Source of the DNA: Leucothrix pacifica
GTDB lineage: Bacteria > Pseudomonadota > Gammaproteobacteria > Thiotrichales > Thiotrichaceae
Direction: 5' to 3'
Assembly: GCF_003172875.1 (NCBI RefSeq)
Contig: NZ_QGKM01000013.1
Span: 1-64,000, forward strand
DNA length: 64,000 nt
Shown here in pieces: positions 1 through 8,515 of the stretch (positions are counted from its first letter, which is position 1; each line of letters begins with the position of its first letter). The translations under genes and the position numbers were made by a program. The notes under the pieces are model-generated. The model had not been told where the DNA came from and searched no databases. It was given only the letters and a program-made list of their open reading frames with translations.

Positions 1-3
1 AAT

Positions 4-822
4 TTATAGTTGGTTACTTACCACCAAAAGCGACTGTTCTGGTAAAAGCGACGCGCCCTCATCAATTGCTAAATTAGTGATCTTATCGATGGATGTATTG
101 ATTATGTCTTTCTTCATGTCCTTTGGGCTAACCCATGGGGTATCTCCTCCCCAATACTTGTTGTTCTTTTTACTCGGTGTTCCACCACTTACCCATATTC
201 CAGCATCCCCTAAAGGTACAGAAATATGAAGATTGTCTCGGAAGTGATCATCTAATAAAGAAGAAATAAGTTTATCTGTTTCAAAAACGCACTTCTCCCT
301 TTTTGTTATTAGTTCATTGATTCCCCAGAGAAGTTGAGAGATCTCAGCCTGTTTTTGCTTAGGCGGCAAAAGAAATTCATAACTTCTTAGATCCTTCCAT
401 TTAATTCGCCTCGTGATTGACCCAGATGCATTCGATACAACAAACTTCCAAAGCTTAGAACTGTTTAGAACTCCGATCAAAAAACCATCACACAATAAAT
501 CAGGATTCTCTTTTATGGTTAAAATATCACCAGAACAAATTCCTGAAAAGTGAGCTCGGGGTGCACGCTCTCTGAAATCACTAGCGTAGAGACTTCTACG
601 AACCAAAAGATAATCATTCGACTCAAAAACTTTCATTGCAGAAGTTACTGAACTTGTCGACTCCCAACGCTTGACTCTAAAGTCCCACTGATCAATATTG
701 CTATTTCCTACAAAACAATCATGATTACTGTCAGCTGGGTTACTTATTCTTTTGCTGTATTCGTGTGATACATCGCCCAGTTGAACTCTGATCCAGTCGC
801 TTTTATCAATATTAAGTTCCAT
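4..822 (-). CDS. hsdS: Type I restriction-modification specificity subunit HsdS, truncated
   Basis: HsdS chooses the DNA target of a type I restriction-modification complex. This 272-residue protein has a complete first target-recognition domain (about residues 8-150), the conserved central helix (around LPPKQKQAEISQLL, about 153-190) and the start of a second domain (TPSKKNNKYWGGDTPWVSPK, about 215-235). It stops soon after, at LLVVSNQL, where family members continue for 130 or more residues. The TAA is at 4-6, and the other two frames also close within a few codons, so one indel would not restore it. The ATG (820-822) overlaps the upstream hsdM stop by one base (TAATG), so translation is coupled. 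HsdR is not visible and may lie left of the window. The protein is probably inactive or half-sized; an inversion or insertion breakpoint is the likeliest cause. Confidence 0.85.
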   Translation of the reverse strand: MELNIDKSDWIRVQLGDVSHEYSKRISNPADSNHDCFVGNSNIDQWDFRVKRWESTSSVTSAMKVFESNDYLLVRRSLYASDFRERAPRAHFSGICSGDILTIKENPDLLCDGFLIGVLNSSKLWKFVVSNASGSITRRIKWKDLRSYEFLLPPKQKQAEISQLLWGINELITKREKCVFETDKLISSLLDDHFRDNLHISVPLGDAGIWVSGGTPSKKNNKYWGGDTPWVSPKDMKKDIINTSIDKITNLAIDEGASLLPEQSLLVVSNQL

Positions 823-2285
823 TAATTCCCCAGATCTCTAAAAAATGAATTCATTGTTGTTTTTAGAGAATCCCCTGACTTAACCCAGTGATTATAAACT
901 TCTTCAAAACCGCCTTGCATAACCCCACCGTATTTATTGACATACAAGTTAATATTTAAAGATGATCTATTTTTAATAATTTCATCTAAATCAACAACTT
1001 TTGACAAACCATCTTTATCAGAATAGCTACTATATGCATCATAAATAGCGTTGACATGCTCGGGATCCAAGAAACTAATTGTTTTCTCTTTTGTTACCAA
1101 GTCATGAGCATTAATAAATAAAACCTTACCTTTTTGATCACTGATTTTGTTAGTCTTTGAAATCACCAGACATGATTCCATACCTGAGTTATAGAAAAGA
1201 TTTCTACCTAAGCCAATTACTGCTTCTAAACGATCAGACTCAATAAATGATCTCCTCATTTGCTCTTCACTATTCCTATCAAGAAAGCCTTGTGGCCATA
1301 GACTTATAGCTCTGCCATTATTGTCATCTAAACTTTTTTGGATGTGTTGCTCAAAAGCATAATCCGCACAACCTTGCGGCGGTGTTCCCCAAAGATTTCT
1401 GCCATAAGGGTCACTTTCAAAACTGTTACGATCCCATGATTTAATCGAGTATGGCGGGTTAGCCAGTATGACGTTAAAGCGTTTCAACTCGTCATTTTCC
1501 AGCAAACCCGGATTCGCCAGCGTGTCACCTCGCACAATGTCGAACTCTTCAATACCGTGCATAAACATGTTCATGCGCGCGATGGCAGAGGTAATCAGGT
1601 TGATCTCTTGCCCGTAGAGTTTCAGCGTGCGGTATTCCTTACCTTCATCCTTTAAATGCAGCGCACAGTTCAGCAGTAAACCACCAGAACCACAGGTCGG
1701 GTCATACACTGACTCACCGGGTTGCGGGTTCATGATCATAGTCATCAGTTTGACCACGGTACGGTTGGTATAGAACTCAGCGGCCGTGTGACCACTGTCA
1801 TCTGCAAACTCTTTTATCAGGTACTCATAAGCGTTACCCAGCTTGTCGTCTGGCACATTGCTGAGGTTGAGTTTGTGTTGTGAGTAATGCTCAACAAGGT
1901 TCGTTAGCATCTCATCGGACAGTCGCTCTTTATTGGTCCAACTCGCATCACCAAAAATACCGTGCAAGGTACCTGGGTTCGCCTGTTCGATAGCGCGCAT
2001 GGCGTTTTGCAGTGCCATACCGACATTGACCGTGACTTCTCGTACATCTTTCCAGTGCGCACCTTCGGGTATCTGAAAGTGGTGATGCTCTGCAAATGCT
2101 GCGTATTCAAGATCGCCATCTGAGTCAGCCAGTGCTGCTTCAAACTCTTCTTCGTATACGTCAGAGATGCGCTTGAAGAACAGCAGCGGGAAGATGTACT
2201 GTTTGTAGTCTCCCGCGTCGATGGTGCCTCGGAGCGTGGTGGCTGCGCCCCAGAGGTATTTTTCTAGTTCGGCTTGGGTCATCAT
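822..2285 (-). CDS. hsdM: Type I restriction-modification N6-adenine methyltransferase subunit HsdM (second copy)
   Basis: This 487-residue HsdM has the N-terminal helical HsdM_N domain (about 1-130) and an N6-adenine methylase domain. The AdoMet motif I is DPTCGSGG (about 195-202) and the catalytic motif IV is NPPY (276-279), so the active site looks intact. The motif usually written EFYTPR is EFYTNR here (about 170-175). Two ATGs are adjacent (MM). The start overlaps the end of the DUF262 gene by four bases (ATGA), and the stop overlaps hsdS. It resembles the other hsdM of this operon over its whole length but differs at many positions, so the two are old paralogs rather than a fresh duplication. 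As partner of the adjacent hsdS it is the likely modification subunit. Confidence 0.93.
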   Translation of the reverse strand: MMTQAELEKYLWGAATTLRGTIDAGDYKQYIFPLLFFKRISDVYEEEFEAALADSDGDLEYAAFAEHHHFQIPEGAHWKDVREVTVNVGMALQNAMRAIEQANPGTLHGIFGDASWTNKERLSDEMLTNLVEHYSQHKLNLSNVPDDKLGNAYEYLIKEFADDSGHTAAEFYTNRTVVKLMTMIMNPQPGESVYDPTCGSGGLLLNCALHLKDEGKEYRTLKLYGQEINLITSAIARMNMFMHGIEEFDIVRGDTLANPGLLENDELKRFNVILANPPYSIKSWDRNSFESDPYGRNLWGTPPQGCADYAFEQHIQKSLDDNNGRAISLWPQGFLDRNSEEQMRRSFIESDRLEAVIGLGRNLFYNSGMESCLVISKTNKISDQKGKVLFINAHDLVTKEKTISFLDPEHVNAIYDAYSSYSDKDGLSKVVDLDEIIKNRSSLNINLYVNKYGGVMQGGFEEVYNHWVKSGDSLKTTMNSFFRDLGN

Positions 2286-4612
2286 AAATTAGGAAAACGC
2301 TCTTTCACATAATTTGCGACTTCTTCAACCGATAAAGCCTGAGACGAATTACCGCTTCTAACATAGAAAGTACTCGACTTCACGCCATGCTTATTAGCAA
2401 CCTCTAAGTACTTAGGAACTTTCCCACGTTTAACATCAATTTGACAGAACTCCACTCCCTCAATATTTGGGAAGCTAATAGTCATCTGTGATGTAGCAAA
2501 ATCAGTTCCAAACCTATCATTCACTAGGTTTCTAATATGGATTTCATAATGATCTGTATTTCGATCAGCTTCTTTAAAAGTTTGGTAATCAAGATCAAGT
2601 CCTAATACATTCTTGTCATCATCAACCCCGATCATCAAAGTACCACCATAACGATTATTAAATGCAGCAATGGTCTTGATAATTATATCTTCTAGTTTTG
2701 TATTTTTTACATCCTGCTTTACATCCCAACGCAAGGTTGATTTGAACTCTAAAACCTCAGACTCTTCTGATGCTAGTTTATCCAAGACTGACTTTTGGCT
2801 TTGCTCTTTTGAGTCATACCCAAATAGCGCGAAATCAGTGGGTGTTTTTTCCTCTTTACCCATCGCGCGATAAATCAAGTTAACAAGCTCGATAGATCTA
2901 AGGTTTAAGAATTGAGTAAAGTTGTTCGTTCTGAAGGCCCCTGGATCAATTAGGTGTGAATCAAGAATCTGATCCATTTCAATATCTGTTAAACCAACCT
3001 GCTCATCTTTCTGAATTTTCTGTAGATATCCAGATGGAGCATCACCACCAATTTTTCGATTCGCCTTAAAAGAGATTGGAGTTTTATTGATTACAGAATC
3101 TGTAATTTTTTTAGAGACTCCTTTAGCAGCACACCATTTTTTAGGGAATAAGTGATGTATCTCAAGCCTTGCTTCCATAAGATCCAATTCTTGCACACCT
3201 GCTTTCCAATAGAAGTCTTTAGCGCCATTGCGTAAAGTAAGTATGTTTAAACCTTTATAAGCAGCACTGTTTCTCGTCCTAAGTGTTTCTAATCGACTAG
3301 GGTGAAATGATGCGTCAAATACAGTCCTAGGTGCTTTCGTCTCATCGTTGACCCAAATCAAGAAGTCTTCAATATCATTAGCAAACCTATTCTCTACAGC
3401 GCTTCCATAAAGCTCACCCATTACCCCACACCAAAACCATTGGCTTAGTCGGTCATATACTTTTGGTTGCAACCAACGCTCACCTAAGTGAGTCATGATA
3501 GCTGCTAAAGGCACTAGTTGAGTTCTATACGGGATGTCCTTACTTGAAAAGAAACACTCTTTTTGAAGAAACTTAGCAACCAATTTGAAACCTGACTCTA
3601 ATTTCTCAGCCCATTTTTGGTAATCAGCAAGTTGGAGATTTAGCATTGCTTTTCTTTTACAGCTGATGCCGGGAAGCTGGTTATCTGCTTTCCCTAATTC
3701 TCGCGCCTTCTGATTTAAATCATAGGTATGTAACAGAGTGACTGCTTGAAGAAAGTCGGTGGTCTGTACCCCGCCTAAGATTTTCTCTTCCTTTAATCGT
3801 GCCAAACGACCAATGGAAGAATCACCATTGCCGTACCAATCTTCTCGAAGGTTATAGCCGTCAGCCGCAAAAGATGCCGTAATTAATTCAAAAGCGGTCA
3901 AAGAAACACCGCCTGTATTAACCTTCTCAAAGACTAAACAGACAGCTTCTTTAGTGGTCGTTTTATTTAGCGCAATGACAGGTATTTGGTAATCCCTGAA
4001 TGGCTCCAGAACTGCCTTCTTAAATGCTTTGAATTCTTTGAATTTACCAAGTTCATAACAACGGTCTTGCCAATCGTCATAATCTAAAATTTGATTACAC
4101 GGAAACTGTAGCTCGCTTACTTCTTTATCAATTGTAGAAATATCAAGCTCGACATTTCTTCCAAAGTTGGATGTGACTTTTTTCTCTTTTCCTACAGAAT
4201 AGAAGGCTTCATCATAATCAGCACCTTCAAGAATTTTCTTGATATCAACGTAGTAATAGCGCTCTATTTTACTTTTTTTATTATCAAACGTATTCACAGG
4301 GCCTTCTAGACCTAGTACCTGTGTTAACGATGTAAGTCGCTGTTGCCCATCAAGAATCAATGTATCTGGCTCTTTTTCTGAATCAATTTTTACATTCTCT
4401 ACAGGACGTACTTGAAATCGGATATCTCCGCCAGTAGCTAAAGTCATGATTGCACCGACAGGGAATGATCGAGCAATACTTACAAGCAAGGACCGCACAT
4501 GTTCATCATCCCATACCCAGCCACGCTGAAAGTCTGGAAGTTGAAAGTTGCCTTTTTTGATATCATCAATTACTTCGCGTAAAGGTATCTTTGTACTATC
4601 GAATGTGCTCAT
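2282..4612 (-). CDS. DUF262 / HNH-like / AlbA-type ATP-binding fusion protein inside an RM operon
   Basis: This 776-residue protein has three recognisable parts. Residues 10-250 are a DUF262 domain with FQLPDFQRGWVW (23-34), DGQQR (88-92) and a family-typical VNTGGVSLTAFEL stretch near 231-243; this is the GmrS/ParB-like nucleotide-binding fold of GmrSD-type enzymes. Around 484-493 is EIHHLFPKKW, which resembles the DUF1524 His-rich nuclease motif of GmrD. From about 615 to the end is an AlbA_2/Schlafen-like domain: EVLEFKST near 619-626, then AAFNNRYGGTLMIGVDDD near 649-666. It lies between two hsdM genes with four-base ATGA overlaps on both sides, so it is part of the RM operon. DUF262 proteins commonly belong to anti-phage nucleases. 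An accessory nuclease or sensor in the system is inferred; the enzymatic activity is unproven. Confidence 0.88.
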   Translation of the reverse strand: MSTFDSTKIPLREVIDDIKKGNFQLPDFQRGWVWDDEHVRSLLVSIARSFPVGAIMTLATGGDIRFQVRPVENVKIDSEKEPDTLILDGQQRLTSLTQVLGLEGPVNTFDNKKSKIERYYYVDIKKILEGADYDEAFYSVGKEKKVTSNFGRNVELDISTIDKEVSELQFPCNQILDYDDWQDRCYELGKFKEFKAFKKAVLEPFRDYQIPVIALNKTTTKEAVCLVFEKVNTGGVSLTAFELITASFAADGYNLREDWYGNGDSSIGRLARLKEEKILGGVQTTDFLQAVTLLHTYDLNQKARELGKADNQLPGISCKRKAMLNLQLADYQKWAEKLESGFKLVAKFLQKECFFSSKDIPYRTQLVPLAAIMTHLGERWLQPKVYDRLSQWFWCGVMGELYGSAVENRFANDIEDFLIWVNDETKAPRTVFDASFHPSRLETLRTRNSAAYKGLNILTLRNGAKDFYWKAGVQELDLMEARLEIHHLFPKKWCAAKGVSKKITDSVINKTPISFKANRKIGGDAPSGYLQKIQKDEQVGLTDIEMDQILDSHLIDPGAFRTNNFTQFLNLRSIELVNLIYRAMGKEEKTPTDFALFGYDSKEQSQKSVLDKLASEESEVLEFKSTLRWDVKQDVKNTKLEDIIIKTIAAFNNRYGGTLMIGVDDDKNVLGLDLDYQTFKEADRNTDHYEIHIRNLVNDRFGTDFATSQMTISFPNIEGVEFCQIDVKRGKVPKYLEVANKHGVKSSTFYVRSGNSSQALSVEEVANYVKERFPNL

Positions 4613-6093
4613 TTAATAAACCCCTGTAAAACTTTCTTAAATTTTTCTTCAGCTTTCTGACTCGCTTGCCAAACCTCTTTCAAATCAGCCAGTGCTTCTT
4701 CAACACTCGGCAGGTTGTCTTCTATGATTTTTTCCACGTAGAGCGGTATGTTGAGGTTGAAGTCGTTTTCTTCTAGGTCTTCAAACGAAGCGACTTTGAC
4801 GTAGTTTTCAACGTCTGCGTAGGCTTCATACCATTCGTGAATTTGCTTTACATGCCCTGACTCTAAGAAGTTCTGTGCTCTTCCTGTTCGTATTTGGTCT
4901 GAGGCATCTATGAATAAGACTTTTTGCTTTTTCGCAGGTGTTTTGTCTTTCTTAAACACCATTACGCAAGCAGCGAGTTGTGTGCCGTAAAACACGTTTG
5001 GCCCTAGACCAATAACCGCTTCTAGTAGATCTTGTTCGAGTAGTGCTTTACGAATTTTTCCTTCTGCGCCTTTTCTAAACAAAGCACCGTGGGGCAGTAC
5101 AACTGTCATACGGCCATTCGCATTCATTGAACGAACCATGTGCTGCACCCATGCCATGTCACCGTTTCCTTTGGGGGGAATCCCTGCAATGTTGCGGCCA
5201 AAGGGGTCGTTAACCCACGCATCAGCACCCCAGTCTTTTAACGAGAATGGCGGATTAGCGATGACACAATCAAAGGTTTTAATACCGTCTGCTTCAAAAA
5301 ATGCCGGGTTACGTAAGGTATCGCCACGAACAATTTCGAAATCTTCAATACCGTGCAAAAACATGTTCATTCTGGCTATGGAGCTAGAGGTTAGGTTTTT
5401 CTCTTGTCCAAACAGCTTGAGCGTTCTGTAGTCTTCGCTGTTTTCTTTTAGGTGATCAACACATTCAAGCAGCATACCGCCCGTACCACAGGCTGGGTCA
5501 TAGATGGTTTCGCCTTCGTGTGGATCAAGCATTAGCCCAAGCAGATGTACAACCGAGCGCGGCGTGTAAAACTCCCCTGCCTTCTTGTTGGTAAGGTCAG
5601 CAAAATGTTTAATCAGGTACTCGTAGGCCTGCCCCAACATGTCCGGTTGAACGTTGTCGTTTCCTAAGGTGTATTGTGAGAAGTGTTCAACCAGATCAAT
5701 CAGAAGTCGGTCAGATAATTTGTTTTTATTGCTCCATTGAGCATCACCAAAAATACCGTAGAGACTTTCCTGATTTGCTTGCTCGATCCCACGCAAGGCT
5801 TTTTCTATCGCAACTCCAACATTAGTCGTCGTCGACCTTACATCATTCCAATGGCAATCCTGCGGAATTTCGAAGCGATGCATCTCTGGTAAGCTGGCGT
5901 ACTCTTCATCCCCGTCAGACTCATCGAGTGCCACTTGGTACTCTTCGTCATAAACATCTGAAATGCGTTTGAAGAATAACAGTGGGAAAATGTAGACCTT
6001 AAAATCTGAAGCATCAACCGGCCCTTTCAGTATCCAAGCCGCTTTCGATAAGTACTGCTCTAGCTGGGAAAGCGATATCTTTTTATCAATCAT
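4609..6093 (-). CDS. hsdM: Type I restriction-modification N6-adenine methyltransferase subunit HsdM (first copy)
   Basis: This 494-residue HsdM is the first large gene of the operon. The HsdM_N helical region covers about 1-140, followed by GEFYTPRSVV (about 173-182), motif I DPACGTGG (199-206) and motif IV NPPF (280-283). The C-terminal tail is helical and charged. All catalytic elements for N6-adenine methylation are present. The stop overlaps the DUF262 start by four bases. The ATG at 6091-6093 follows AAGCAGGC at a good spacing and overlaps the stop of a possible tiny upstream ORF. A second, divergent HsdM lies downstream in the same operon; type I systems normally encode one. Whether the two form one complex or serve different S subunits cannot be seen. 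Confidence 0.93.
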   Translation of the reverse strand: MIDKKISLSQLEQYLSKAAWILKGPVDASDFKVYIFPLLFFKRISDVYDEEYQVALDESDGDEEYASLPEMHRFEIPQDCHWNDVRSTTTNVGVAIEKALRGIEQANQESLYGIFGDAQWSNKNKLSDRLLIDLVEHFSQYTLGNDNVQPDMLGQAYEYLIKHFADLTNKKAGEFYTPRSVVHLLGLMLDPHEGETIYDPACGTGGMLLECVDHLKENSEDYRTLKLFGQEKNLTSSSIARMNMFLHGIEDFEIVRGDTLRNPAFFEADGIKTFDCVIANPPFSLKDWGADAWVNDPFGRNIAGIPPKGNGDMAWVQHMVRSMNANGRMTVVLPHGALFRKGAEGKIRKALLEQDLLEAVIGLGPNVFYGTQLAACVMVFKKDKTPAKKQKVLFIDASDQIRTGRAQNFLESGHVKQIHEWYEAYADVENYVKVASFEDLEENDFNLNIPLYVEKIIEDNLPSVEEALADLKEVWQASQKAEEKFKKVLQGFIK

Positions 6094-6350: not shown

Positions 6351-6441
6351 TGGCGGAGAGAGAGGGATTCGAACCCTCGATAAGCTATTAACCTATACAC
6401 ACTTTCCAGGCGTGCTCCTTAAGCCACTCGGACACCTCTCC
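6351..6441 (-). tRNA. tRNA-Ser (anticodon GGA)
   Basis: The minus strand folds as a class II tRNA. The acceptor begins GGAGAGG, the anticodon stem CACGC/GTGTG encloses loop CTGGAAA with anticodon GGA, and there is a long variable arm. The T arm is GAGGGTTCGAATCCCTC. The 3' CCA is encoded at 6351-6353. It reads serine codons UCC and UCU. It lies between the RM operon and the housekeeping rsuA-purA block, and tRNA-Ser genes are frequent integration sites. No attachment-site repeat was found within the window. Confidence 0.97.
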
Positions 6442-6496: not shown

Positions 6497-7192
6497 CTAG
6501 GGCTTTGACAAGTCAATCTCATCGGGGCTTAGCTCACGCCATTTCCCCGGCTCTAAACTGGTATCCAGCTCAATATGCGCAATCGCTTCACGGTGTAAAG
6601 CAATCACTTCATTACCAACCGCTTCCAGCATACGCTTTACCTGATGATAGCGCCCTTCACTAATGCTCAGATTGATCAGGTCAGGCTCTAATACATCCAC
6701 CATTGCAGGTTTGGTAGGCTTGGTCTCGCCTTCCAACAATATCCCCTCTTCCAGCGCCAGCTTAGCCTTCTCGGTCAGTGCCTCTGCCAGAGTGACCCGA
6801 TAGCGCTTAAAGTGCTCATGCTTAGGCGAGGTTAAGCGGTGTGACCATTGACCATCGTCTGTGGCAATAATTAACCCTGTGGTATCCCGATCCAAACGTC
6901 CGGCAACGTGTAATTGATCGCGTCTCGGTACTAGCAAGTAGTCAAAGACAGTCAGGGAGTTTTTATCACGATTCGCACTCACGCAGTCCAGCGGCTTATT
7001 CAGCATGTAGTAGCGAGGCTTTGGCTCAGTAATGAGTGTACCAAGGTAGCGCACTTCATTGTCTTCTGTGACTTTTGAAGCACCCTTTGTGACAGGTTCG
7101 CCATCAACCAACACATCGCCTTGCTTGATGGCTTTTACCGCCTGAGAACGCGTCAGATTAGACGCGTTGCTCAGTAGTTTATCTAAGCGCAT
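6497..7192 (-). CDS. rsuA: 16S rRNA pseudouridine synthase, RsuA family
   Basis: This enzyme isomerises a uridine in 16S rRNA to pseudouridine (U516 for RsuA). The 231-residue protein has an N-terminal S4 RNA-binding domain (about 1-58, starting MRLDKLLSNASNLTR) and the RluB/RsuA catalytic domain with GRLDRDTTGL near 97-106; its first Asp is the catalytic residue. A second family motif, EGRYHQVKRML, is near 179-189. The length equals E. coli RsuA. It begins 6 bp after purA ends, so it is probably the last gene of the hflK-to-purA transcript. RluB/RluE/RluF have the same fold, so the exact target base is inferred. Confidence 0.88.
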   Translation of the reverse strand: MRLDKLLSNASNLTRSQAVKAIKQGDVLVDGEPVTKGASKVTEDNEVRYLGTLITEPKPRYYMLNKPLDCVSANRDKNSLTVFDYLLVPRRDQLHVAGRLDRDTTGLIIATDDGQWSHRLTSPKHEHFKRYRVTLAEALTEKAKLALEEGILLEGETKPTKPAMVDVLEPDLINLSISEGRYHQVKRMLEAVGNEVIALHREAIAHIELDTSLEPGKWRELSPDEIDLSKP

Positions 7193-7198
7193 TCAGAC

Positions 7199-8515
<1,317 letters not shown>

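Follow-up and report, generated by a model that had tools for sequence, protein, structure and literature searches.

A predicted GmrSD-Schlafen fusion gene embedded between the two hsdM genes of a PacII-type restriction-modification operon in Leucothrix pacifica

In a 64,000-nucleotide stretch of the Leucothrix pacifica genome (assembly GCF_003172875.1, contig NZ_QGKM01000013.1, positions 1 to 64,000; hereafter, the window), a type I restriction-modification (RM) operon carries, between its two hsdM genes, a gene for a 776-residue protein that joins a GmrSD-type core, comprising a DUF262 domain and a probable HNH region, to a C-terminal Schlafen-type AlbA_2 domain (hereafter, the fusion). The two hsdM genes correspond to the backbone of PacII-type systems, which place N6-methyladenine (m6A) and N4-methylcytosine (m4C). 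We consider it just probable that the hsdM junction of such operons is a slot for accessory anti-phage cassettes, occupied here by a single-chain effector whose two nuclease-like parts would combine restriction of modified DNA with RNA cleavage. The sequence itself shows the backbone, the slot and the domains, with intact motifs, whereas the activities are predicted.

All four open reading frames (ORFs) of the preliminary description were found on the minus strand, in the order hsdM, fusion, hsdM, hsdS and with overlaps of 4, 4 and 1 bases, confirming the reported gene order (Table 1).

The two hsdM genes form a PacII-type backbone

Both HsdM proteins contain the Pfam domains HsdM_N and N6_Mtase (N6_Mtase E-values 2.1e-102 and 2e-80), and HsdS contains Methylase_S (E = 8.2e-6). 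The best match of the 494-residue HsdM1 in the PDB was chain A of 7vru (E = 6e-172), stronger than its match to chain B, and conversely, the 487-residue HsdM2 matched chain B best (E = 3.7e-181), more strongly than chain A. The 7vru structure is that of PacII_M1M2S, a non-canonical type I enzyme whose M1 subunit, with motifs AGEF and NPPF, produces m6A and whose M2 subunit, with AAEF and NPPY, produces m4C (PMC9613975). The same motif pairs are present in HsdM1 and HsdM2, respectively. Furthermore, R29 of PacII_M2, a marker of M2-type subunits, aligns with R19 of HsdM2 and with K23 of HsdM1 in the PDB alignments. Together with one hsdS and one hsdR, the latter joined to the operon by inference from a second contig (C24), the locus has the PacII-type gene set of two unlike hsdM genes, one hsdS and one hsdR. 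The preliminary description had taken the second hsdM as a departure from normal type I organization; this view had to be abandoned, the pair being a known m6A/m4C backbone.

A search with HsdM2 (E<=1e-135) matched 9 of 369 genomes of the class and 12 of 398 genomes of the phylum, with the window, G165 and G282 common to both lists. These matches and two plasmid operons, picked from 465 and 43 matching records by adjacent matches to both hsdM genes, gave 20 operons, which are a sample rather than a census, the E-value limit selecting close relatives. NPPF- and NPPY-type hsdM genes were adjacent in the 20 operons, the NPPF gene of G097 being cut by the contig end. Among 78 genomes of the class of G447, searched likewise at a limit that selects close relatives, the hsdM pair was found in G447 itself and in no other. 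In a tree of the 40 subunits and three outside HsdM proteins, for which the program warned of long branches and in which the root serves for drawing only, the NPPY subunits formed a single clade (support 100/100) and the groups largely matched across the two halves. Thus, judging from the sequences, the two hsdM genes are an old, co-inherited pair.

A recent hsdM duplication around the fusion was rejected: the two window HsdM proteins are 51% identical to each other, the NPPY clade has 100/100 support, and G097 and G726 supply the nearest relatives of both genes. We also rejected the fusion as the reason for the presence of two hsdM genes, because in 14 of the 20 operons the interval between the pair is too short for a gene.

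The hsdM1-hsdM2 junction holds different genes in related operons

The gap between hsdM1 and hsdM2 is 235 bases or less in those 14 operons, and large accessory genes occupy the junction in 4 of the 20, two of the four being of the GmrSD family. In G726, the slot gene encodes a canonical GmrSD protein of 715 residues with both GmrSD_N and GmrSD_C, and overlaps its neighbors by 4 bases on either side. The slot of G268 holds genes for a DUF4062 protein and a 492-residue SLFN_AlbA_2-HATPase_c_4-Fic-like_C protein, and that of G447 a gene for a 507-residue DUF4062-HATPase_c_4 protein. In G165, the slot contains a 164-residue ORF without a Pfam match; the slot of the near relative G097 spans 972 bases, in which no ORF reaches 90 residues. 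A decayed fusion in G097 found no support, tblastn detecting no trace of the fusion in that genome.

The operon nearest to that of the window is that of G726, with M1, M2 and R proteins 85%, 75% and 81% identical, respectively. By contrast, HsdS is 27% identical over 194 residues and the slot protein 27% over 95 residues. Thus, slot content differs in otherwise conserved operons. Moreover, since a GmrSD-family gene with 4-base overlaps on both sides recurs between the hsdM genes of G726, the arrangement is not due to chance. The expectation that the same gene order would be found in a second genome was therefore borne out for hsdM1-GmrSD-hsdM2-hsdS-hsdR in G726, whereas the exact fusion was not seen in the slot again.

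In addition, a second accessory site was observed between hsdM2 and hsdS, with AAA and subtilase genes in L193, AAA in L218, subtilase in L215 and HTH-M78 in L216; L217 and the remaining partners at this site were assigned by equal gene lengths only.

The fusion combines a GmrSD core with a Schlafen-type domain

We applied the GmrSD/DUF262 definition of PMC11411939. GmrSD_N matched residues 12-248 of the fusion above the cut-off (Pfam E = 4.7e-32), and the DUF262 motifs are intact: QR at residues 29-30, DGQQR at 88-92 and FEKVN, matching FxxxN, at 228-232. The best PADLOC stretches on the fusion (PDC-M55C, HEC-05, NsnA, SspE and others) all lie in the DUF262 part, and no NCBIfam family was found for the fusion at E<=0.001. 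A profile search with the core matched 7p9k (E = 1.4e-7). The AlphaFold2 model of the fusion is mostly confident to approximately residue 590 and poor beyond; in Foldseek searches with this model, the top three PDB matches were BrxU chains (E-values 9.9e-14 to 3.8e-12). In an alignment of 34 rows covering an HHxFP...N...N pattern, H487, F489, P490 and N509 were invariant and H486 and N518 nearly so. An HNH part is thus probably present, on the grounds of this residue conservation and of the predicted fold match to BrxU.

SLFN_AlbA_2 was recognized at residues 617-760 (Pfam E = 1.7e-16), and profile searches with this part matched SLFN14 (E = 9.8e-12), SLFN11 and 5yd0, an entry labelled Schlafen 8 in one listing and SLFN13 in another. 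When the domain was modelled alone from an alignment with seven other AlbA_2 domains, the model was confident (mean predicted local distance difference test score 88.6), and its fold matches were DIP2311, SAMD9 and SLFN13. E617, E622 and D665 are invariant across the eight AlbA_2 sequences, which come from unlike contexts, and align with E205, E210 and D248 of SLFN13, so that both the Schlafen fold and the E-E-D triad are present. In SLFN13, mutation of these three residues diminished cleavage (PMC5862951). The DUF262 and AlbA_2 assignments of the preliminary description were thus upheld by Pfam, and its HNH-like part by conserved residues and the BrxU fold match.

Relatives of the fusion and AlbA_2 domains near type I genes

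From 101 pattern matches in genome contigs, 82 of which encode a relative, we retained 80 loci, including one (L112) without a DUF262 frame. By comparison with reference proteins, 19 of these lie in type I contexts, 10 in Hma-like and 6 in DISARM-like contexts; 18 of the 19 type I loci have an hsd gene within 50 bases. Two loci, L048 and L077, were counted as 'other' as their contigs end early; in these, the DUF262 gene is followed by hsdM at distances of -4 and 11 bases. The name Hma (helicase, methylase, ATPase) is that given in PMC11411939, and the 'Hma-like' label rests on similarity to L053 only. BREX membership of the neighbors in L053 was rejected, the methylase matching PglX models far below the cut-off.

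The whole GmrSD-AlbA_2 build was found in 2 of the 80 loci, L081 and L106 (41% identical to each other); L112, truncated by a contig end, is a possible third case. Neither L081 nor L106 had a recognized hsd gene nearby, and at L106 an Hma-type methylase was matched weakly. The fusion build can thus live without a type I partner. Matches at E<=0.001 were found somewhere in 19 of the 95 relatives' genomes. With the fusion as query (E<=1e-30), 9 of the 369 class genomes matched, the window included, and among these, G425 alone besides the window includes AlbA_2. In G425 (L146), hsdR comes first, followed by the gene for a GmrSD-AlbA_2 protein and then by hsdM, hsdS, an unknown gene and a KwaB-like gene; the 707-residue GmrSD-AlbA_2 protein is 28% identical to the fusion over residues 13-775 and its gene lies one base upstream of hsdM. 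On a Sinorhizobium plasmid, a fusion lies approximately 2.8 kb before hsdM. Three relatives were found on viral contigs, matched to residue 586 only.

Across 63 genomes of the family, 10 of 112 AlbA_2 hits, including the window itself, were located no more than 6 kb from an HsdM_N hit and shared its strand in all ten cases, compared with 1.6 expected under uniform placement, a null that favors a link of AlbA_2 to type I genes because defence genes cluster anyway.

Several individual loci deserve a record. In G016, of the same family, genes for an HsdM-AlbA_2 protein (866 residues), a second HsdM (798 residues), HsdS and HsdR stand in a row (L137:6167-15572), both HsdM proteins being merely 23-26% identical to those of the window. 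A 549-residue protein on a short contig (L139:397-2046) has AlbA_2 at its C-terminus and a Methylase_S (HsdS) match below the cut-off. In G008 (L138:5162-7553), DUF262 and AlbA_2 are encoded in neighboring frames (C56:5165-6280 and 6844-7200), which may represent the halves of a split fusion, again in the same family. L. pacifica itself has another type I operon with AlbA_2 (L008, contig C33), in which hsdM and hsdS are followed, 17 bases on, by a gene for an AlbA_2 protein. The KwaB-like gene of G425 (L146:13589-14482) is located two genes after hsdS. Finally, in a Halomonas metagenome-assembled genome, DarT and Macro-domain genes lie inside a type I operon behind a DUF262 gene (L103:5930-7641), with equal gene lengths in L047 and, partly, L049.

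Possible functions of the embedded fusion

Under the reading that we favor, M1M2S would methylate self DNA, placing m6A and m4C on opposite strands, and M1M2S together with HsdR would cut unmethylated invader DNA. The GmrSD core, with DUF262 as nucleotide-binding sensor and HNH as nuclease, would attack base-modified DNA that resists cutting by the type I enzyme, as do BrxU and TgvAB, and the Schlafen-type domain might cleave tRNA or other RNA once the sensor fires, so that phage production would stop even where DNA escapes. There are precedents: TgvAB is a type I-embedded GmrSD system with anti-phage activity (PMC11411939), a DUF262-HNH core is fused to a different RNase domain, HEPN, in PMC3710099, and Schlafen RNases have been described as backup effectors of BREX (PMC12839542). 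That the fusion is an in-operon part of a defence locus and not a chance neighbor, as proposed originally, agrees with the overlaps, the GmrSD gene in the slot of G726 and the same build in G425. However, calling it an undescribed system was too strong, because TgvAB and RloF are already published examples of GmrSD genes within type I operons.

Several observations weigh against the proposed dual activity or its tie to the operon. GmrSD_C was not found on the fusion, nor was any Pfam match in the HNH part. The core is distant from BrxU (16% identity, TM-scores 0.30-0.44, root-mean-square deviation of approximately 20 A), and the domain placement is therefore unsure. The SAMD9 fold match of the AlbA_2 part (7ksp) is a DNA-bound domain, and AlbA_2 is termed a DNA-binding domain in PMC6299218. 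No system was recognized by the reference set near 44 of the 80 core relatives, and no second copy of the exact fusion was seen in the hsdM1/hsdM2 slot among the 20 PacII-type operons. Furthermore, recent insertion into a normal operon, which the preliminary description had named as evidence that would speak against its proposal, is partly in line with the slot content differing between near relatives. The loose BrxU superposition, together with the below-threshold match of the HsdS-like AlbA_2 protein, lowered our estimate both for this reading and for a role of the fusion as a guardian of the type I enzyme.

The fusion could also be an independent, type IV-like cassette that uses the promoter and translation of the operon without a functional link to the type I enzyme, and whose AlbA_2 domain merely binds nucleic acid. 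The change of slot content in G726 on a constant backbone fits this explanation, as does the occurrence of the core in Hma-like, DISARM-like and unrecognized contexts. However, the Schlafen triad is invariant in eight sequences from unlike contexts, two different cassettes each overlap both neighbors by 4 bases, which suggests that matched expression matters, and tgvAB outside its full cluster gives 10-100-fold less protection against several phages (PMC11411939). We regard a mere passenger as a serious yet doubtful candidate. A closer tie to the enzyme would exist if M1M2S kept the fusion inactive, as EcoprrI does PrrC (PMC3874165), and inhibition of the type I enzyme by phage proteins (Ocr, ArdA or Stp-like) released cleavage of RNA and, possibly, DNA. 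This is consistent with the overlap of the fusion with both hsdM genes, with the inhibition of PacII by Ocr and ArdA (PMC9613975), with the fusion of AlbA_2 to HsdM in L137 and perhaps to an HsdS-like protein in L139, and with the excess of AlbA_2 near HsdM_N. Nevertheless, the whole-build relatives L081 and L106 lack recognized hsd genes, protection by TgvAB is independent of HsdR activity (PMC11411939), and the fusion is intact beside an interrupted hsdS, which a lethal unguarded effector should forbid unless the M subunits suffice. We thus hold the guarded arrangement to be unlikely.

It is quite improbable that the element in hsdS (see below) silenced the operon and that the fusion is a remnant being lost. 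The division of hsdS between two contigs, each bearing an element end, would agree with decay, and an hsdS insertion accompanied by methylation loss is described for Vibrio cholerae DRC193A (PMC11411939); yet none of hsdM1, the fusion, hsdM2 and hsdR is truncated or interrupted, and their motifs are intact. Beyond the favored reading of a slot with a dual-activity effector lies a wider proposal that we offer as speculation with the odds clearly against it: the Schlafen-type AlbA_2 domain could serve type I RM systems generally as an RNA-cutting arm, fused to HsdM, to HsdS or to an embedded GmrSD protein, with the window protein sensing and cutting modified DNA and cutting RNA while docked on the asymmetric m6A/m4C M1M2S complex, and with the hsdM junction serving as an effector exchange slot.

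Comparison with known systems

PacII (7vru/7vs4) resembles the window operon in having two HsdM subunits with the same motif pairs, single hsdS and hsdR genes, and an R29 equivalent confined to the NPPY subunit; it differs in that the window has a 2.3-kb effector gene between the hsdM genes and an interrupted hsdS. GmrSD-family genes embedded in type I operons have been published for TgvAB of the V. cholerae VPI-2 island and for RloF of Campylobacter (PMC11411939, PMC4619093). However, TgvAB comprises two proteins encoded in a single-hsdM operon, with no AlbA_2 mentioned in the excerpted text of the source, whereas the window encodes one protein with a Schlafen-type domain in a two-M operon. 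TgvAB requires both a DUF262 and a DUF262-DUF1524 protein, and the single DUF262 gene of the window operon does not qualify. The extra GmrSD domains named by Machnicka et al. in the part of PMC4619093 available are DUF4268, DUF4357 and DNA_binding_1, with AlbA not among them. BrxU, a type IV enzyme of the Escherichia fergusonii BREX island, likewise has a DUF262 and HNH core embedded in another defence locus (PMC12707154); it is a 587-residue protein without AlbA_2, resides in BREX rather than type I, and shares the above 16% identity with the window core.

Schlafen RNases, including SLFN13 and bacterial Schlafens near BREX, share the AlbA_2 fold and the E-x4-E and GVDD residues with the fusion. 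PrrC is a tRNA anticodon nuclease not known to contain DUF262 or HNH, and is paired with a conventional type IC enzyme. Like PrrC in EcoprrI (PMC3874165), the fusion would be an RNA-targeting effector embedded in a type I operon, the RNA targeting being predicted here. The bacterial Schlafens of PMC12839542 carry AlbA_2 with a histidine-kinase-like and winged helix-turn-helix part, whereas in the window AlbA_2 follows a GmrSD core.

Among open full texts, subscription papers and preprints being outside the scope, no paper was found with GmrSD, m4C and hsdM together, and DUF262 and Schlafen occurred together in one paper only, in separate entries. The m6A/m4C backbone and the type I-embedded GmrSD are each known, and their combination with the fusion appears to be new. 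The locus thus links three lines that we found described apart: two-methylase type I systems, embedded GmrSD enzymes and Schlafen-type RNase effectors. Different effectors in one slot of closely related operons amount to a natural swap experiment on how far an effector depends on its host RM enzyme, and if the fused domain is an active RNase, a single protein would combine DNA restriction with translation shutdown.

Locus layout, the interrupted hsdS and hsdR

Table 1. Features of the operon and its surroundings (window positions)
Feature	Position	Strand	Basis
hsdM1, m6A-type HsdM of PacII-type type I RM, 494 residues, AGEF + NPPF	4609..6093	-	Pfam, PDB match 7vru_A, motifs, tree
Embedded putative effector gene, GmrSD_N - helical linker - HNH (probable) - AlbA_2, 776 residues	2282..4612	-	ORF, Pfam, fold match; 4-base overlap with each hsdM
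GmrSD_N / DUF262 domain, residues 12-248	3869..4579	-	Pfam, motifs, BrxU fold match
Probable His-Me finger (HNH) region, residues 484-526	3035..3163	-	34-row alignment conservation, structure model; without Pfam match
SLFN_AlbA_2 domain, residues 617-760 (E617, E622, D665)	2333..2764	-	Pfam, alignment, Schlafen matches
hsdM2, m4C-type HsdM of PacII-type system, 487 residues, AAEF + NPPY, R19 = PacII_M2 R29	822..2285	-	Pfam, PDB match 7vru_B, motifs, NPPY clade
hsdS, 5' part only; final codons up to the stop at 4-6 derive from the element	4..822	-	Methylase_S, sequence comparison
End of repeated (insertion) element interrupting hsdS	1..18	unspecified	Recurrence at other contig edges
tRNA-Ser (GGA), directly upstream of operon	6351..6441	-	ARAGORN

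Contig C35 starts at window base 1, and the hsdS stop at bases 4-6 sits in the end of a repeated element, outside the true hsdS sequence. The 19-mer of this element end also stands at C111:2-20 and at C143:31773-31791, in the latter case 117 bases short of the contig's end. The opposite element end opens contig C24, the start of which shares 21 bases with C12:1-21 and, judged by eye, looks like a transposase tail. TA follows the element end at positions 19-20 and is present at the other flank too. The element may belong to the IS630 family. The C-terminal remainder of hsdS is found at the start of C24 (L121), up to base 457, and hsdR, encoding 989 residues with SWI2_SNF2, HSDR_N and T1R_D3-like domains, begins one base after the hsdS stop (L121:459-3428). 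From this, we infer that C35 and C24 were once neighbors, joined across the element, and that the original operon order was hsdM-fusion-hsdM-hsdS-hsdR, with hsdS broken in the present assembly. The element probably disabled or altered the type I part in this L. pacifica isolate, leaving the effector gene upstream of hsdS intact. In addition, the C-terminal hsdS part contains a 21-base tandem repeat at L121:113-154 (VPVAINT repeated), which may reflect slippage or, so close to the contig start, an artefact of assembly.

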